Shown: piece by piece, positions 5,227 to 12,219 of the stretch
How the letters are laid out: each line of letters opens with the position of its first letter
Position numbering within the stretch: the stretch's first letter is position 1
Assembly: GCA_013696305.1 (NCBI GenBank)
Contig: JACCYV010000375.1
Coordinates: 1 to 46,357 of the forward strand
Length of the DNA: 46,357 bases
Direction of reading: 5' to 3'
From: Nitrospira sp.
Lineage (GTDB): Bacteria; Nitrospirota; Nitrospiria; Nitrospirales; Nitrospiraceae
Translations under genes and position numbers: made by a program
The notes under the pieces: generated by a model
Told to the model about the DNA's origin: nothing
Databases searched by the model: none
Seen by the model: only the letters and a program-made list of their open reading frames with translations

Positions 5227-6225
5227 CTATGATTCTTCCGTAAACAATACTTTCGACACAGCAATCGGCTGTTGACTTAGATCAGGTTTCACGATAGCCG
5301 CGCCTACCGGCAAGGTACCAACGGCCAACAGACGTCCCGATTCGTCCTTGATACGGATGGCCCGATTCGATTCCGCAGGGAAAGCCGACGGCCAACCGCT
5401 CCATGCCAGCACTTCGGACTGGGAGACCGGCATTCCGTGCACGACTCGCTGAGCTGTCCCCGCTCTCACCGTGCAGGACGGAAGTCCTGCCAATGCGTCG
5501 TCCAGCGTGAGCATCGAGGCAGCAAGCGTACCCTGCTCCAGCCTCGATTCAACTTCCTCGACCGTCAACGCCTGCTCCAGCGTCAGCGGTCCCACACGCT
5601 CGCGAACCAGAGTCGACATATGACCACCGACTCCCAACTTGTCGCCGATATCCGCGCAGAGCGTCCGGATATAGGTTCCCTTGGAGCAGGTCACCCGGAA
5701 TGTCACATCGGGAATCTGAATTTTGACAATGTCCAGACGAAACACCGTCACTAGGCGCGCCTGGCGGGGAACATCCCGTCCAGCCCGTGCGGCCTTGTAC
5801 AGAGGGACACCGCCGACCTTGACCGCCGAGTACATGGGAGGCACCTGTTGAATGGGCCCTTCAAACGCTGCGGCGACTTCGCGAATACGATCTGCCGTCA
5901 CCCGCTCAATCGGTGATCGCTGGAGGAGAGTTCCTGTGCCATCTTGGGTGTCGGTAGTTTCCCCGACTCTTAAATCGGCCAGGTACGTCTTGTCCCACTC
6001 CAGCAAATATTCGGCAATGCGCGTCCCGCGCCCCACCAGCAACGGCAAGACACCGGTCGCGGCTGGATCCAGCGTGCCGGCATGGCCTAACTTCATCCCG
6101 CGTAACTTCCCCCGGATCCGAGCAACCACATCATGTGAAGTCCATCCTGCTTCCTTGCGGACATTCAGCACACCGTCTTGAAGGGCTGTGGCCAGTTGCG
6201 GCTCTTTCGTGGCTATCATCGTCAT
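5227..6225 (-). CDS. truB: tRNA pseudouridine(55) synthase
   Basis: 332 residues. It makes pseudouridine 55 in the T-loop of tRNAs. The catalytic aspartate is in HAGTLDPAATGVL (Asp53), followed by the family blocks DKTYLADLRVGETTDTQDGTG, QVPPMYSAVKVGG and CSKGTYIRTLCADIG. The last 90 or so residues, with SEVLAWSGWP and IRIKDESGRLLAVG, fit a PUA-like RNA-binding tail. The ATG at 6225 lies 3 bases after the rbfA stop, so it is translationally coupled. The roughly 17 residues before the conserved core (NVRKEAGWTSHDVV) are a short non-conserved leader. Confidence 0.97.
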   Translation of the reverse strand: MTMIATKEPQLATALQDGVLNVRKEAGWTSHDVVARIRGKLRGMKLGHAGTLDPAATGVLPLLVGRGTRIAEYLLEWDKTYLADLRVGETTDTQDGTGTLLQRSPIERVTADRIREVAAAFEGPIQQVPPMYSAVKVGGVPLYKAARAGRDVPRQARLVTVFRLDIVKIQIPDVTFRVTCSKGTYIRTLCADIGDKLGVGGHMSTLVRERVGPLTLEQALTVEEVESRLEQGTLAASMLTLDDALAGLPSCTVRAGTAQRVVHGMPVSQSEVLAWSGWPSAFPAESNRAIRIKDESGRLLAVGTLPVGAAIVKPDLSQQPIAVSKVLFTEES

Positions 6226-6228
6226 TTG

Positions 6229-6627
6229 CTAGGCATCGCTACGAGTTGACTCGTCAGGTATTTCTGTTTGGACATGGTCACGGTGCAGGCCGTCCAACAA
6301 TTCTAGGACACGATCGGCTCTGGGGCCGCTCACATCCTTTATAAACGTCAGTTCAGGCAGATAGCGTAACGCCAGACGGCGGCCCAACTCAGCCCGCACG
6401 AATCCGCTCGCCTTGGCCAAACCATCGAACACCTGCCGCTCACCGTCTTTCTGCTCCATGGTCGTGACAAACACGCGCGCAATACGCAGATCTTTGGTCA
6501 GCTCCACATCGGTCACCGTGACGGAGCGCACCCGCGGATCCTTAATTTTCCGCATCAGGATGTCCGCGACTTCCATGCGAATCTGATCCGCCACGCGATC
6601 GGCCCGGCTATACGTCGACTTGGTCAT
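6229..6627 (-). CDS. rbfA: Ribosome-binding factor A
   Basis: 132 residues, with a single KH-like fold. It helps 16S rRNA maturation and 30S assembly, and in E. coli it is needed in the cold. The N-terminal block (RADRVADQIRMEVADILMRKIKDPRV), the central VTVTDVELTKDLRIARVFVTT and the LRYLPELTFIKD block near residue 95 are typical. It lies 9 bases after the DUF503 gene and 3 bases before truB, the common nusA-infB operon order. Confidence 0.96.
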   Translation of the reverse strand: MTKSTYSRADRVADQIRMEVADILMRKIKDPRVRSVTVTDVELTKDLRIARVFVTTMEQKDGERQVFDGLAKASGFVRAELGRRLALRYLPELTFIKDVSGPRADRVLELLDGLHRDHVQTEIPDESTRSDA

Positions 6628-6636
6628 GACGCCGCC

Positions 6637-6918
6637 TTAGAGCAACTCAATTTGCGAACGCACCAGTTGGATCGTGGGCACCGCCCGAATCAGATTCACT
6701 GCTTGATCCAGCACCTGGTTCACATGCGCAGATTCGTTGGCCACACACGCCAAACCGAGGATCGCCTTTTGCCACAAATCCTGATCTCCAACCTCGGCGA
6801 CCGAAACATTGAACTTGTCCCGTATCCGGCTTTTCACGCTTTGCAGAACCCGACGCTTGTCCTTCAATGAATGGCCGTCGGGAATAAACAACTCCATGGT
6901 GCAGAGCCCAACGATCAT
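6637..6918 (-). CDS. ylxP: YlxP-like DUF503 protein
   Basis: 93 residues, typical for DUF503. The family is a small ferredoxin-like-fold protein of uncertain role encoded between infB and rbfA in many bacteria. The motifs [49 protein letters not shown] and a C-terminal [11 protein letters not shown] are clear. The ATG overlaps the infB stop by 4 bases (ATGA), so translation is coupled. Its context suggests a role in translation or ribosome assembly. The function remains unproven. Confidence 0.93.
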
Positions 6919-9521
6919 GCCCGATGACTTTGCGGAGACGCGCCTCGATTGACCGGTTCAAGCTTGGCAGCAATTTTATCGAAGAGATAGGCTTCGATAA
7001 TGTCTCCGGATTTGAGGTCATTGAAATTCTCGACCGTGATGCCGCACTCATACCCCTGCTGCACTTCTCGCACATCGTCCTTGAACCGCCGGAGCGACCC
7101 AAGCTTGCCTTCGTACACCACCACGTTATCCCGAATAACCCGCACCCCCACACTGGTTCTTGATATAACTCCGTCCACCACGTAACAACCCGCCACGAGA
7201 CCGGCTTTCGGAATTGTAAACATCTGCCGGACTTCAGCTCGGCCAAGAACACGCTCCTTGAGCATCGGCTCAAGCAACCCTTCCATGGCCGCGCGGATAT
7301 CGTTCAGCGCATCGTAGATAATGCCATAGAGGCGCACATCGACACCTTCGCGCTCAGCCAGCGCGGCCGCTTTCGGCTCCGGACGGATATTGAACCCGAT
7401 CACGATCGCTTTGGAGGCCGCCGCCAAGAGAATATCCGTTTCCGTAATGCCGCCGACGCCACTGTGCATGACCCGCAGTTTTACGGCTCCAGCCGGCATC
7501 TTTTCTACCGCGGAAGCCAAGGCTTCAGCCGAACCCTGCACATCGGCCTTGATGACGATGGGCAACTCTTTAACATTGCCTTCCTGAATCTTGGCAAACA
7601 AGTCATCCAAGCTGATTTTCGCCGGTCCGGCCAAATCTGCGGCACGCTGCTTCATGGCCCGTTCCTGGGCAATCTCGCGAGCGACGCGTTCATCCTTCAC
7701 AATGGTGAACAGATCTCCCGCACCCGGCACGCCCGGTAACCCGATGACTTCAACAGGTACCGACGGCCCTGCCTCGGACGCCTTACTTCCCGTATCTGTA
7801 ACCAGCGCCCGTACACGCCCGCTAAATGTTCCCACCACAAAGGCATCCCCGACGTGCAGGGTCCCGCTCTGCACCAAAACCGTGGCAATCGGTCCGCGGC
7901 CGCGGTCCAATTTTGCCTCGATCACCAGGCCTTTTGCCATGCGTGAGGGGTCGGCTTTCAGCTCCAGTACCTCTGCCTGCAGCAGAACCATTTCCAGGAG
8001 CTGATCAAGCCCGGTCCGCTGCTTGGCGGACACTTCCACCATGATTGTGTCGCCACCCCAGGGTTCAGGAATCAAGCCATGCTCGGTCAGGGCATTCTTC
8101 ACACGATCGACATTGGATCCAGGCTTGTCGACCTTATTGATGGCCACAATGAGCGGCACTCCAGCGGCCTTTGCATGATGAATGGCCTCAACCGTTTGCG
8201 GCATGACGCCGTCGTCGGCGGCGACGACCAGGATGACAATGTCCGTCGCTTTCGCTCCACGCGCGCGCATCGCCGTGAAGGCTTCGTGCCCCGGCGTATC
8301 GAGAAAGGTCACCTGTTTGCCGCGAACGCCCACGATATAGGCCCCGATATGCTGCGTGATGCCTCCGGCCTCGCCCTCCGCCACCTTCGTTTCACGAATG
8401 GCGTCAAGCAGGGAGGTTTTGCCGTGATCGACATGCCCCATGATCGTCACGACCGGCGGCCGCAGCACGGCCTGCTCCTCACCGGTGGATTGTGCGGCCT
8501 CTTCCAGCAGTGCCTCACCGACCTTTTCCGTCGATACTTCCACCCTGGTACCATACTCTTCAGCAATCAAGAACGCTGCTTCGAGATTGATCGACTGATT
8601 GAAGGTCACCATCTGACCCATCTCCATCAGCTTTCTTACAACATCTGCCGGACGCTGACCGATGAGTTCCGCAAACTCCTTGACGCTCACTCCTGCGCTC
8701 AGTTTCACGCTTTTCTTTCTCGGCTTGGTGACTTCCGTGGGCGACGCATGGTGAATATGCTTGGACCGGTCTTCACGACGCTGTACCGGAATGGCCCGAA
8801 GGTCGCCCCATCGGGTGGCATCATTCTTAAACTTTGCTTCATCTTCCTCCCGCGTCCGTGGCGCCTTTTTGGCCTTTTTGAGCTTCTCGCGTGCCGCTGC
8901 CTCACTCTCCAGTGCCTCCGCAGACGCACTCTTCCTCTTTGCCGCCGCAAGCGCATCGAATGAGGGCGCGGTCAAAGAGGCCGGCTGACCTGTTTTGACC
9001 GACGATTCCTCCGACGGTGTCATGACGGCCGGCGATGCCGTCGACTCTCCCGATGAACTCGGCTCAGAAGGATCTGTTGCAATCGCGTCACCCGCCGGAC
9101 CGGCAGAGGGCGCCATATTGGCCGCATCAACTCCCGGCGATGCAGCATGAGGGGAGATCGCAAATGCGGATTCTGCCGCCGCAAGAGGCGCGGCACTCTC
9201 TTCAACGCCTTCTTCTTTTTTCTTTTTAATGAGAATGCGTTTCTTGTCGGGTTTCTGAGGCTCTTCATGCGTCACCGCATGCGCCCTCTCGTGGGACGCC
9301 CCGGATTCCTTCGACGTGCGAAGCGCTTTCTTGACGCCGTGCCCGCCTGAGCCGGATTCCCCGGCCCGTGCCTTCACACTCACCTTCTCCAGCACGATTC
9401 GAACTGAATCTTCATCCAAGGCGCTGCTGTGGGACGCCACCGGAATCCCGAGCCGTTTCAGTTCAGGAATCAATTCCCGATTCTCCATCCCCAGCTGCTT
9501 TGCTAATTCGTACACCCGCAT
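6915..9521 (-). CDS. infB: Translation initiation factor IF-2
   Basis: 868 residues. This GTPase places initiator tRNA on the 30S subunit and promotes subunit joining. The first 45 residues match the IF2_N fold ([21 protein letters not shown]). A long low-complexity Ala/Ser/Lys/Glu linker follows to about residue 270, then a second IF2_N-like segment ([25 protein letters not shown]). The GTPase shows GHVDHGKTS near residue 360, DTPGHEAF and NKVDKPG. Domains II to IV end with the fMet-tRNA-binding region ([25 protein letters not shown]). No strong Shine-Dalgarno precedes the ATG at 9521. The gene lies 63 bases after nusA with no ylxR between them. Confidence 0.98.
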
Positions 9522-9584: not shown

Positions 9585-10724
9585 TCAGTCCGCCTGTGAC
9601 GCCGCAGCGCGCGCCTCATCCTGCTGGCGCTGTGCCTCGGTCTCTTCCGCCAGGGCCGCTTTAATATCCCGATCCCGCTCAGCCTTTTCTTTCTCATATT
9701 CCGTCGCGCTGATGATGTCGATCTTCCAGCCGGTCAACCGCGCGGCAAGCCGCACATTTTGCCCGTTCTTCCCGATGGCCAGAGACAATTGTGAATCCGC
9801 CACGACAACCAAGGCTGATTTCTTTTCTTCGTCGATTCCCACCTTCTCGATCGTGGCAGGATTCAACGCCTCTGCAATGAAGACGCGCGGATCTTGCGTC
9901 CATGTGATGATGTCGATCTTTTCACCGCGCAATTCCCTTACCACCGCCTGCACACGTGAGCCTTTAATGCCAACACAGGCCCCCACCGGGTCCACGGCCT
10001 TGTCACGCGACGAAACGGCGATCTTCGTTCGATCCCCAGGCTCACGCACGATCGACTTGATTTCGACGATCTTTTCTCCGACCTCCGGGACCTCAAGCTC
10101 GAACATTTTTGCCACGAACTGGGGGTGGCTGCGTGAGAGGATGACCTGCACATCCTTAGGCGTGCGACGTACCTCCAACAGCAAGGCCTTCACGCGATCA
10201 CCACGGCGATAGGTTTCGCGTGGGATCTGCTCTTGAATGGGAAGAATCGCCTCTGTCTTGCCGAGATCGACCAGGAAATTTCGCCGTTCCATGCCGAGAA
10301 TAATTCCATTCACCAGGTCACCTTGGCGGGTCGAGTACTCCTTCTGAACCGCTTCCCATTCAGCCTCTCGCACCTTCTGAAAAATAACCTGCTTCGCCGT
10401 TTGGGCAGCGATACGACCCAGTTCGTCCATTTCGATCAAGGAACCGATCTCATCACCGACCTCTGCGCCTTCGTCAAAGAGGCGCGCCTCCTTCAGAGAA
10501 ATCTCGGCTTTCGGATTCGCCACCGTATCGACAATGATCTTCTTCGAGACGACTGAGATCTCGCCGGTTTTGCCGTCAATTTCCACTTGAATGTTTTCGG
10601 CCTGACCGAAACGTTTCTTTGCGGCGGTTAGAAGTGCCGACTCGATCGCGCCAATGACCCTGGCCTTATCGATCCCTTTTTGACGACCGATTTCATCAAT
10701 GACTGCGATCAATTCTCGGTTCAT
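9585..10724 (-). CDS. nusA: Transcription elongation/termination factor NusA
   Basis: 379 residues: an N-terminal RNA-polymerase-binding domain, S1 (about residues 135-200, GIILGMERRNFLVDLG), and two KH domains (KGSRVQAVVRELRGEKIDII and GKNGQNVRLAARLTGWKIDII). It lacks the acidic repeats found at the C-terminus of the 495-residue E. coli protein and ends in a short Glu/Ala-rich helix, like shorter NusA proteins of many phyla. GAGGTG precedes the ATG. It lies 45 bases after rimP. Because NusA modulates hairpin-dependent pausing and termination, the terminator just upstream of rimP could allow it to control its own operon (inference). Confidence 0.97.
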   Translation of the reverse strand: MNRELIAVIDEIGRQKGIDKARVIGAIESALLTAAKKRFGQAENIQVEIDGKTGEISVVSKKIIVDTVANPKAEISLKEARLFDEGAEVGDEIGSLIEMDELGRIAAQTAKQVIFQKVREAEWEAVQKEYSTRQGDLVNGIILGMERRNFLVDLGKTEAILPIQEQIPRETYRRGDRVKALLLEVRRTPKDVQVILSRSHPQFVAKMFELEVPEVGEKIVEIKSIVREPGDRTKIAVSSRDKAVDPVGACVGIKGSRVQAVVRELRGEKIDIITWTQDPRVFIAEALNPATIEKVGIDEEKKSALVVVADSQLSLAIGKNGQNVRLAARLTGWKIDIISATEYEKEKAERDRDIKAALAEETEAQRQQDEARAAASQAD

Positions 10725-10769: not shown

Positions 10770-11288
10770 CTAAGAAAACTCCACCTTCCGACGCGCCAAG
10801 GCGATGTGATCAAATTCAATCCGAACGGTTTCCGTCGATTTTTTTTGTTGAACCACGAGCGTCACGGCACCGTCTTCAACCTCTACGACTGTTCCGACGA
10901 TCCGCCATTGCTCATGAATAGGCTCGCGCAACTTGAGATTTACGGGCTGTCCAATCAGGCGCCGATAGTCTCGTACTCCCCGCAATGGCCGATCTAGGCC
11001 CGGCGACGATACCTCCAGCGTGTAGGCATGAGGAAACGGGTCCATGACATCGAGCGCCGGACTCAGCGAGCGATGCGCCTGCTCACAATCTGTCAGCGTG
11101 ACTCCTCCCGGTTTGTCGATAAAGACACGGATCACAGTCCGCGGGCCTTGGCCGGCACAGATTGCCTCGACCAATTCCAGACCATACGACTGTAAAATAG
11201 GCGCCGCGACTTCCAGCACACGCAGATTCAGGGCCTCAGCACGTTTGACTGAGGGCTTACCTGCAGGCACTGCTCCCGCTTCACTCAT
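10770..11288 (-). CDS. rimP: Ribosome maturation factor RimP
   Basis: 172 residues when started at ATG 11288 (MSEAGAVPAGKPSVKRAEAL). A longer frame to 11330 is open, but its first codons lie inside a terminator hairpin, so it is rejected as the start. RimP assists late 30S assembly. The family blocks GLELVEAICAGQGPRTVIRVFIDKPGGVTLTDCEQAHRSLSPALD, YTLEVSSPGLDRPLR and a C-terminal SH3-like part with IEFDHIALARRKVEF are clear. The Shine-Dalgarno is poor. It heads the rimP-nusA-infB operon. Confidence 0.93.
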   Translation of the reverse strand: MSEAGAVPAGKPSVKRAEALNLRVLEVAAPILQSYGLELVEAICAGQGPRTVIRVFIDKPGGVTLTDCEQAHRSLSPALDVMDPFPHAYTLEVSSPGLDRPLRGVRDYRRLIGQPVNLKLREPIHEQWRIVGTVVEVEDGAVTLVVQQKKSTETVRIEFDHIALARRKVEFS

Positions 11289-11300
11289 AAGACAAAAGAA

Positions 11301-11332
11301 GCTCAAACAAAAAAGTGGGCCTTGGCCCACTT
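11301..11332 (-). terminator. Intrinsic terminator between dat and rimP (possible attenuator)
   Basis: A perfect inverted repeat, AAGTGGGCC (11313-11321) and GGCCCACTT (11324-11332), has a two-base centre. On the minus strand it is followed by TTTTTTGTTTG. This is a strong intrinsic terminator for the upstream dat operon, 48 bases after the dat stop. It ends only about 15 bases before the rimP ATG, leaving no room for a promoter between the terminator and rimP. Confidence 0.85.
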
Positions 11333-11343
11333 ACAGCGCGGGA

Positions 11344-11372
11344 ACAATACCATGCCATATTATTGAAAGCAA
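11344..11372 (-). promoter_or_regulatory. Weak candidate promoter for rimP operon, upstream of the terminator
   Basis: On the minus strand TTGCTT (11372-11367) and TATTGT (11349-11344) are separated by exactly 17 bases. The match to the sigma-70 consensus is modest (3/6 and 4/6). If used, the transcript would start a few bases before the terminator hairpin, so initiation and termination would be tightly linked. It is included because the operon needs a promoter somewhere here. Confidence 0.3.
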
Positions 11373-11379
11373 GAGGCGG

Positions 11380-12219
11380 TTACCCGGTGAACGCGTTCCA
11401 TCGAGCGGATAAGAGGCGTGACACAACGCCCGGCGCGCCGTCTCCGATCATTTTCCCATCGACCCGCACCACGGGCAATACATCCACAGTCGTTCCTGTC
11501 AAAAAGACTTCAGACGCCGTGAACAACTCATTCCGACTGACAAAGGCCTCCGCAACGGCGAGGCCTTCTTTCCGAGCCAACTCCAATACGATCGCGCGCG
11601 TGACGCCGGACAGAATTTTGTGCCCTTCGGGAGCGGTTTGAATAACACTATTTCGCACCACCATCACATTGCTGACCGATCCTTCCGTCACCATGCCCTC
11701 CCGAATCAAGATCGCTTCAAACACTCCGGCCTCTTTGGCCTGTTGACGCGCCAGCACATTAGCCAGCAGATTGACGCTCTTGATATCGCAACGTCCCCAG
11801 CGGATATCGTCGATCGTGATGGCTTGAACCCCCGCATTTCGAACCGATGCCCCGAGCGGGTGAAGTTCGCGGAAGGTCAGAATGGTGGCCGGAGAGATGT
11901 CAATGGGAAAGGGATGATCTCGAGGAGCTTGTCCGCGGGTGATCTGCAGATAGATCTTAGTCTCCGGAAATCGGCTCAGCCGAAGGCCCTCATGAATCAA
12001 TGAGGTCCATTGAGCCATGGTGTGGCCCGTTGCCAGCTGCAGCGACTGCGCACTCCGCTCCAGCCGGGTCAGATGGGCCTCAATGGAGAAGGGCCGGCCG
12101 CGGTAGGTACGAAGGACTTCGTAAACACCATCACCGAACTGAAACCCACGATCCTCAATGCTGACGACGGCGTCAGCCAGCGGGCTAAAGCGACCATTCA
12201 CGCAGGCCATGTCAGGCAT
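11380..12219 (-). CDS. dat: D-amino acid aminotransferase (class IV PLP enzyme)
   Basis: 279 residues, the length of bacterial D-alanine transaminases. It exchanges amino groups between D-amino acids and 2-oxo acids, typically giving D-glutamate for peptidoglycan. The PLP lysine is in CDIKSVNLLANVLA (Lys147). The block EDRGFQFGDGVYEVLRTY and, most telling, APRDHPFP with an Arg-x-His pair (100-102) match the D-amino acid transaminase carboxylate site rather than IlvE. TEGSVSNV and TGTTVDVLPV complete the PLP site. It is the last gene of a four-gene run and is followed by a strong terminator. A branched-chain aminotransferase is the main alternative. Confidence 0.85.
   Translation of the reverse strand: MPDMACVNGRFSPLADAVVSIEDRGFQFGDGVYEVLRTYRGRPFSIEAHLTRLERSAQSLQLATGHTMAQWTSLIHEGLRLSRFPETKIYLQITRGQAPRDHPFPIDISPATILTFRELHPLGASVRNAGVQAITIDDIRWGRCDIKSVNLLANVLARQQAKEAGVFEAILIREGMVTEGSVSNVMVVRNSVIQTAPEGHKILSGVTRAIVLELARKEGLAVAEAFVSRNELFTASEVFLTGTTVDVLPVVRVDGKMIGDGAPGVVSRLLSARWNAFTG

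Follow-up and report, generated by a model that had tools for sequence, protein, structure and literature searches.

A conserved promoter and a probable attenuator hairpin ahead of rimP-nusA-infB in Nitrospira

The minus strand of this Nitrospira contig carries, between a dat-like aminotransferase gene and rimP, a promoter followed directly by a hairpin and a U-tract. The hairpin probably works as a leader attenuator for rimP-nusA-infB, at which termination raised by NusA would act as negative feedback. The idea of an attenuator for the rimP operon has already been published (PMC2965389); the present analysis adds nitrite-oxidising Nitrospira and most of the phylum, with strong conservation, to the range of a known attenuator that has been little tested. 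What may be distinctive is the geometry in Nitrospirales, where the hairpin abuts the promoter as judged from the predicted transcription start.

The window is the whole stretch of DNA that was analysed, 46,357 nt in length. The minus-strand genes of the locus follow one another in the order dat-like aminotransferase, rimP, nusA, infB, DUF503 gene, rbfA and truB, with the following assignments:

11380..12219, minus strand: dat-like class IV aminotransferase (Aminotran_4, Pfam E 1.2e-49), stop at 11380, upstream of rimP
10770..11288, minus strand: rimP (Pfam RimP_N and RimP C-terminal domain), ATG at 11288
9585..10724, minus strand: nusA (NusA_N, S1 and KH domains, Pfam)
6915..9521, minus strand: infB (Pfam)
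6637..6918, minus strand: DUF503 gene (Pfam)
6229..6627, minus strand: rbfA (Pfam)
5227..6225, minus strand: truB (Pfam)

The DUF503 gene (6637-6918), situated between infB and rbfA, shares 4 bases with the 3' part of infB. The ATG at 11288 is supported as the real start of rimP because changes in the first 22 codons are mainly third-position (182:26:10, 17 genus loci); from the same codon-position changes a start codon further downstream was judged unlikely.

The elements between dat and rimP are, in the direction of transcription:

11367..11372, minus strand: -35 element TTGCTT (TTG-type -35 in 94/94 Nitrospirales)
11344..11352, minus strand: extended -10 TGGTATTGT, 12-14 nt before GTGGG in 94/94 Nitrospirales
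11335..11338, minus strand: predicted transcription start, placed from the -10 position, about 7 nt after the -10
11313..11332, minus strand: terminator hairpin AAGTGGGC(CAAG)GCCCACTT, rimP-leader motif, 8 perfect pairs, loop CAAG
11305..11312, minus strand: U-tract TTTTGTTT, directly after the hairpin

The hairpin and U-tract together have a predicted energy of -14.0 kcal/mol (34-nt stretch). A sequence-only reading of this DNA had placed a perfect terminator between dat and rimP, and the 8 perfect pairs followed by TTTTGTTT bear this out; its distance of 15 bases to rimP was close to the 16 nt measured between the end of the T-run (11305) and the ATG (11288). From the end of the stem to the ATG there are 24 nt. 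Both strands of the 46-kb window were searched for hairpins with at least 8 Watson-Crick pairs, at least 5 G/C, a loop of 3-6 and at least 6 T of 8; the one at 11332-11313 is the only match, the expectation from simulated first-order Markov sequence being 0.05 per window. For the exact hairpin pattern, allowing up to 3 mismatches, 0.03 matches per window are expected, and the second match found is the same palindrome on the opposite strand. A plus-strand terminator was rejected, because on that strand the hairpin lacks a T-run after it (TACAGCGC).

The promoter, TTGCTT-N17-TATTGT with a preceding TG that extends the -10, lies at 11372-11344 on the minus strand, directly upstream of the hairpin. 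A simple promoter scan missed it because TTGCTT and TATTGT match the E. coli consensus poorly. Matches to TTGCTT-N16-18-TATNGT number three in the whole genome, one of which is 11372-11344. Between the hairpin and the rimP ATG, no TANNNT -10-like hexamer was found in the 8 genus loci checked. Both results agree with the earlier claims that no space for a promoter is left after the terminator and that a possible promoter lies just upstream, where it is now seen to be conserved. Counted from the predicted start, the hairpin would span about +4/+6 to +23/+25, and the RNA released by termination would be about 30-35 nt long. The literature on Nitrospira yielded no relevant start-site maps, transcript ends or reporter data.

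The TTG...TGNTANNNT promoter, the hairpin and the U-tract are kept in 94/94 Nitrospirales sequences, which are related by descent and do not represent 94 independent events, and the hairpin with its T-run is present in all 80 loci of a public scan. The spacing from the -10 to the GTGGG stem core in Nitrospirales is 12 nt in 7 sequences, 13 nt in 82 and 14 nt in 5; dinucleotide shuffles of the same stretches predict 0.5 promoters at such spacing. Promoter and hairpin vary much less than do the dat codons next to them or the spacer of the promoter. In 28 of 29 genus genomes the hairpin is present as a single copy, with 0 matches for a reversed control pattern.

Its strict Nitrospirales form was found in 37 of 148 genomes of the phylum, and GTGGG...CCCAC followed by a T-run was seen in 21 of 23 Nitrospirota families that were sampled besides the window's own (f1); this form was not found upstream of rimP in families f6 and f14. 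Of 41 further Nitrospirota sequences that carry the hairpin, 26 have a promoter of the same type, in most cases at 26-53 nt from the stem. Across the phylum the GTGGG/CCCAC core pairs are nearly invariant, which suggests sequence recognition, and at the second outer position 99 sequences have an A-U pair, 30 G-C and 6 G-U; the switching between A-U and G-C suggests real pairing. The T-run is invariant in Nitrospirales, and conservation of the U-tract equals that of the stem. That the hairpin is chiefly a stabiliser of the 5' end of the mRNA, with termination incidental, is considered very improbable. Such a role would suit a hairpin within about 5 nt of the 5' end, its location relative to the predicted start, but a stabiliser would not need the U-tract, and in many other families the hairpin lies about 26-53 nt from the -10.

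The hairpin directly follows dat and would in fact also stop dat transcripts. It could thus be simply the dat terminator, with rimP served by read-through or by another promoter. Of 80 Nitrospirota loci, 78 have dat upstream of rimP; the remaining two loci are truncated. With dat nearly always the neighbour in this family, gene order by itself does not tell to which gene the element belongs. In a sister family of the same order (f2), in which dat was not detected upstream, the promoter, its spacing and the hairpin all persist; most other families without dat upstream also retain the hairpin, which therefore belongs to rimP and is not just the terminator of dat. The simple dat terminator is also at odds with the promoter conserved between dat and the hairpin in 94/94 sequences, with the lack of a promoter-like hexamer after the hairpin and with a degree of stem conservation well beyond what an ordinary terminator would require, and is considered unlikely. 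The attenuator of rimP-nusA-infB suggested in the sequence-only reading thus gains support from the conserved promoter, hairpin and U-tract, the lack of any promoter seen downstream, the single copy and the independence from dat.

In the attenuator model, transcription would start at about 11338-11335 from the promoter at 11372-11344, and RNA polymerase would reach the intrinsic terminator within the first 30-35 nt or so. Some polymerases would stop and release a tiny RNA, and the remainder would read through into rimP-nusA-infB and probably also into DUF503-rbfA-truB. Plentiful free NusA would raise termination, and nusA expression would fall. Termination at the hairpin in vivo is predicted from the sequence, and the setting of read-through by NusA in Nitrospira is proposed by analogy. 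With the hairpin beginning at about +4 to +6 there would be no room for an antiterminator, so that read-through would have to be set by proteins or by the polymerase itself. Because the stem is near-invariant and antiterminator space is lacking, the element appears to be read by a protein (NusA, perhaps with NusG) instead of responding to a small molecule or to competition from another RNA fold. NusA usually binds the polymerase once it has left the promoter, a point against NusA acting on a hairpin as early as about +5 to +24.

The published rimP-leader is a GGGc...gCCC terminator before rimP-nusA-infB, with NusA proposed as its regulator (Naville and Gautheret 2010, PMC2965389). As far as its sequence can tell, the Nitrospira element has all of the rimP-leader features that were tested: location 5' of rimP-nusA-infB, a GGGc...gCCC stem within AAGTGGGC(CAAG)GCCCACTT, a T-stretch after the stem, no visible antiterminator and a distance from stem to ATG inside the published 4-130 nt (PMC2965389). 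The conserved promoter upstream would place the terminator within the transcribed leader, if the predicted start is correct. The element differs in its wider conserved core (AAGTGGGC...GCCCACTT) and in that the hairpin abuts the predicted promoter, whereas the B. subtilis leader cited in PMC2965389 is about 180 nt long.

In B. subtilis, autoregulation of nusA by NusA-stimulated termination in the leader is reported in a 2025 review (PMC12288461). There too the same gene is controlled and an intrinsic terminator lies in the leader; provided that the predicted start holds, the Nitrospira leader would be far shorter, and a NusA effect in it is proposed by analogy. Beyond Nitrospirota, where spread is judged from the literature and the E. 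coli sequence, the metY-rimP-nusA-infB operon of E. coli (t1/t2, PMC6511841) likewise has terminators directly before rimP, the last being TGGGC(TTTA)GGCCC-T7. The metY gene, several promoters and tandem terminators of E. coli have no counterpart in the Nitrospira locus. The parallel drawn earlier with a structured enterobacterial leader stands as a looser comparison: the short GGGC/GCCC terminator agrees, but no Rfam leader family matches the window at the gathering score, or the region at E<=10.

NusA is the best candidate for setting read-through, since it was proposed in PMC2965389 and since nusA autoregulation is reported for B. subtilis (PMC12288461). A leader attenuator governed by another factor (NusG, RimP, growth-rate or nucleotide effects), or by a constant read-through ratio that does no more than determine how strongly the operon is expressed, is given a modest chance. 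In its favour, an antiterminator cannot be seen, PMC2965389 also considered feedback by RimP, and the conserved TTGTTT of the U-tract resembles the B. subtilis NusG pause motif TTNTTT (PMC12288461), which is a lead only. Among these possibilities, however, NusA feedback alone has reported experimental support for the operon, in another phylum (PMC12288461).

For the NusA-responsive attenuator, a further possibility is put forward tentatively: in Nitrospirales it may be fused to its promoter, with a leader that is hardly more than the terminator, and may sense free NusA through the rate of its association. The terminator, which keeps an almost constant distance of 12-14 nt from the -10, would begin at about +5, and termination would then be in competition both with escape from the promoter and with the initial binding of NusA to the polymerase. 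Such a promoter-abutting arrangement, if real, would provide a minimal natural system (about 30 nt) for NusA-dependent termination, without riboswitch or antiterminator.

Some further variation was observed in the leader region. The G that interrupts the U-tract TTTTGTTT, and so creates the NusG-like TTNTTT motif, is present in 92% of Nitrospirales and, at the exact position, in 58% of sequences from other families. In place of GTGGG...CCCAC, family f6 (L142-L144) has ahead of rimP a hairpin of the type GGCGGGC...GCCCGCC with a weak T-run; family f14 (L157-L158) shows no such hairpin. In L159-L161 and L183 (family f15) and in L166 (f20), a long inverted repeat, apparently the terminator of the gene upstream, reaches exactly as far as the TTGC of the rimP promoter.
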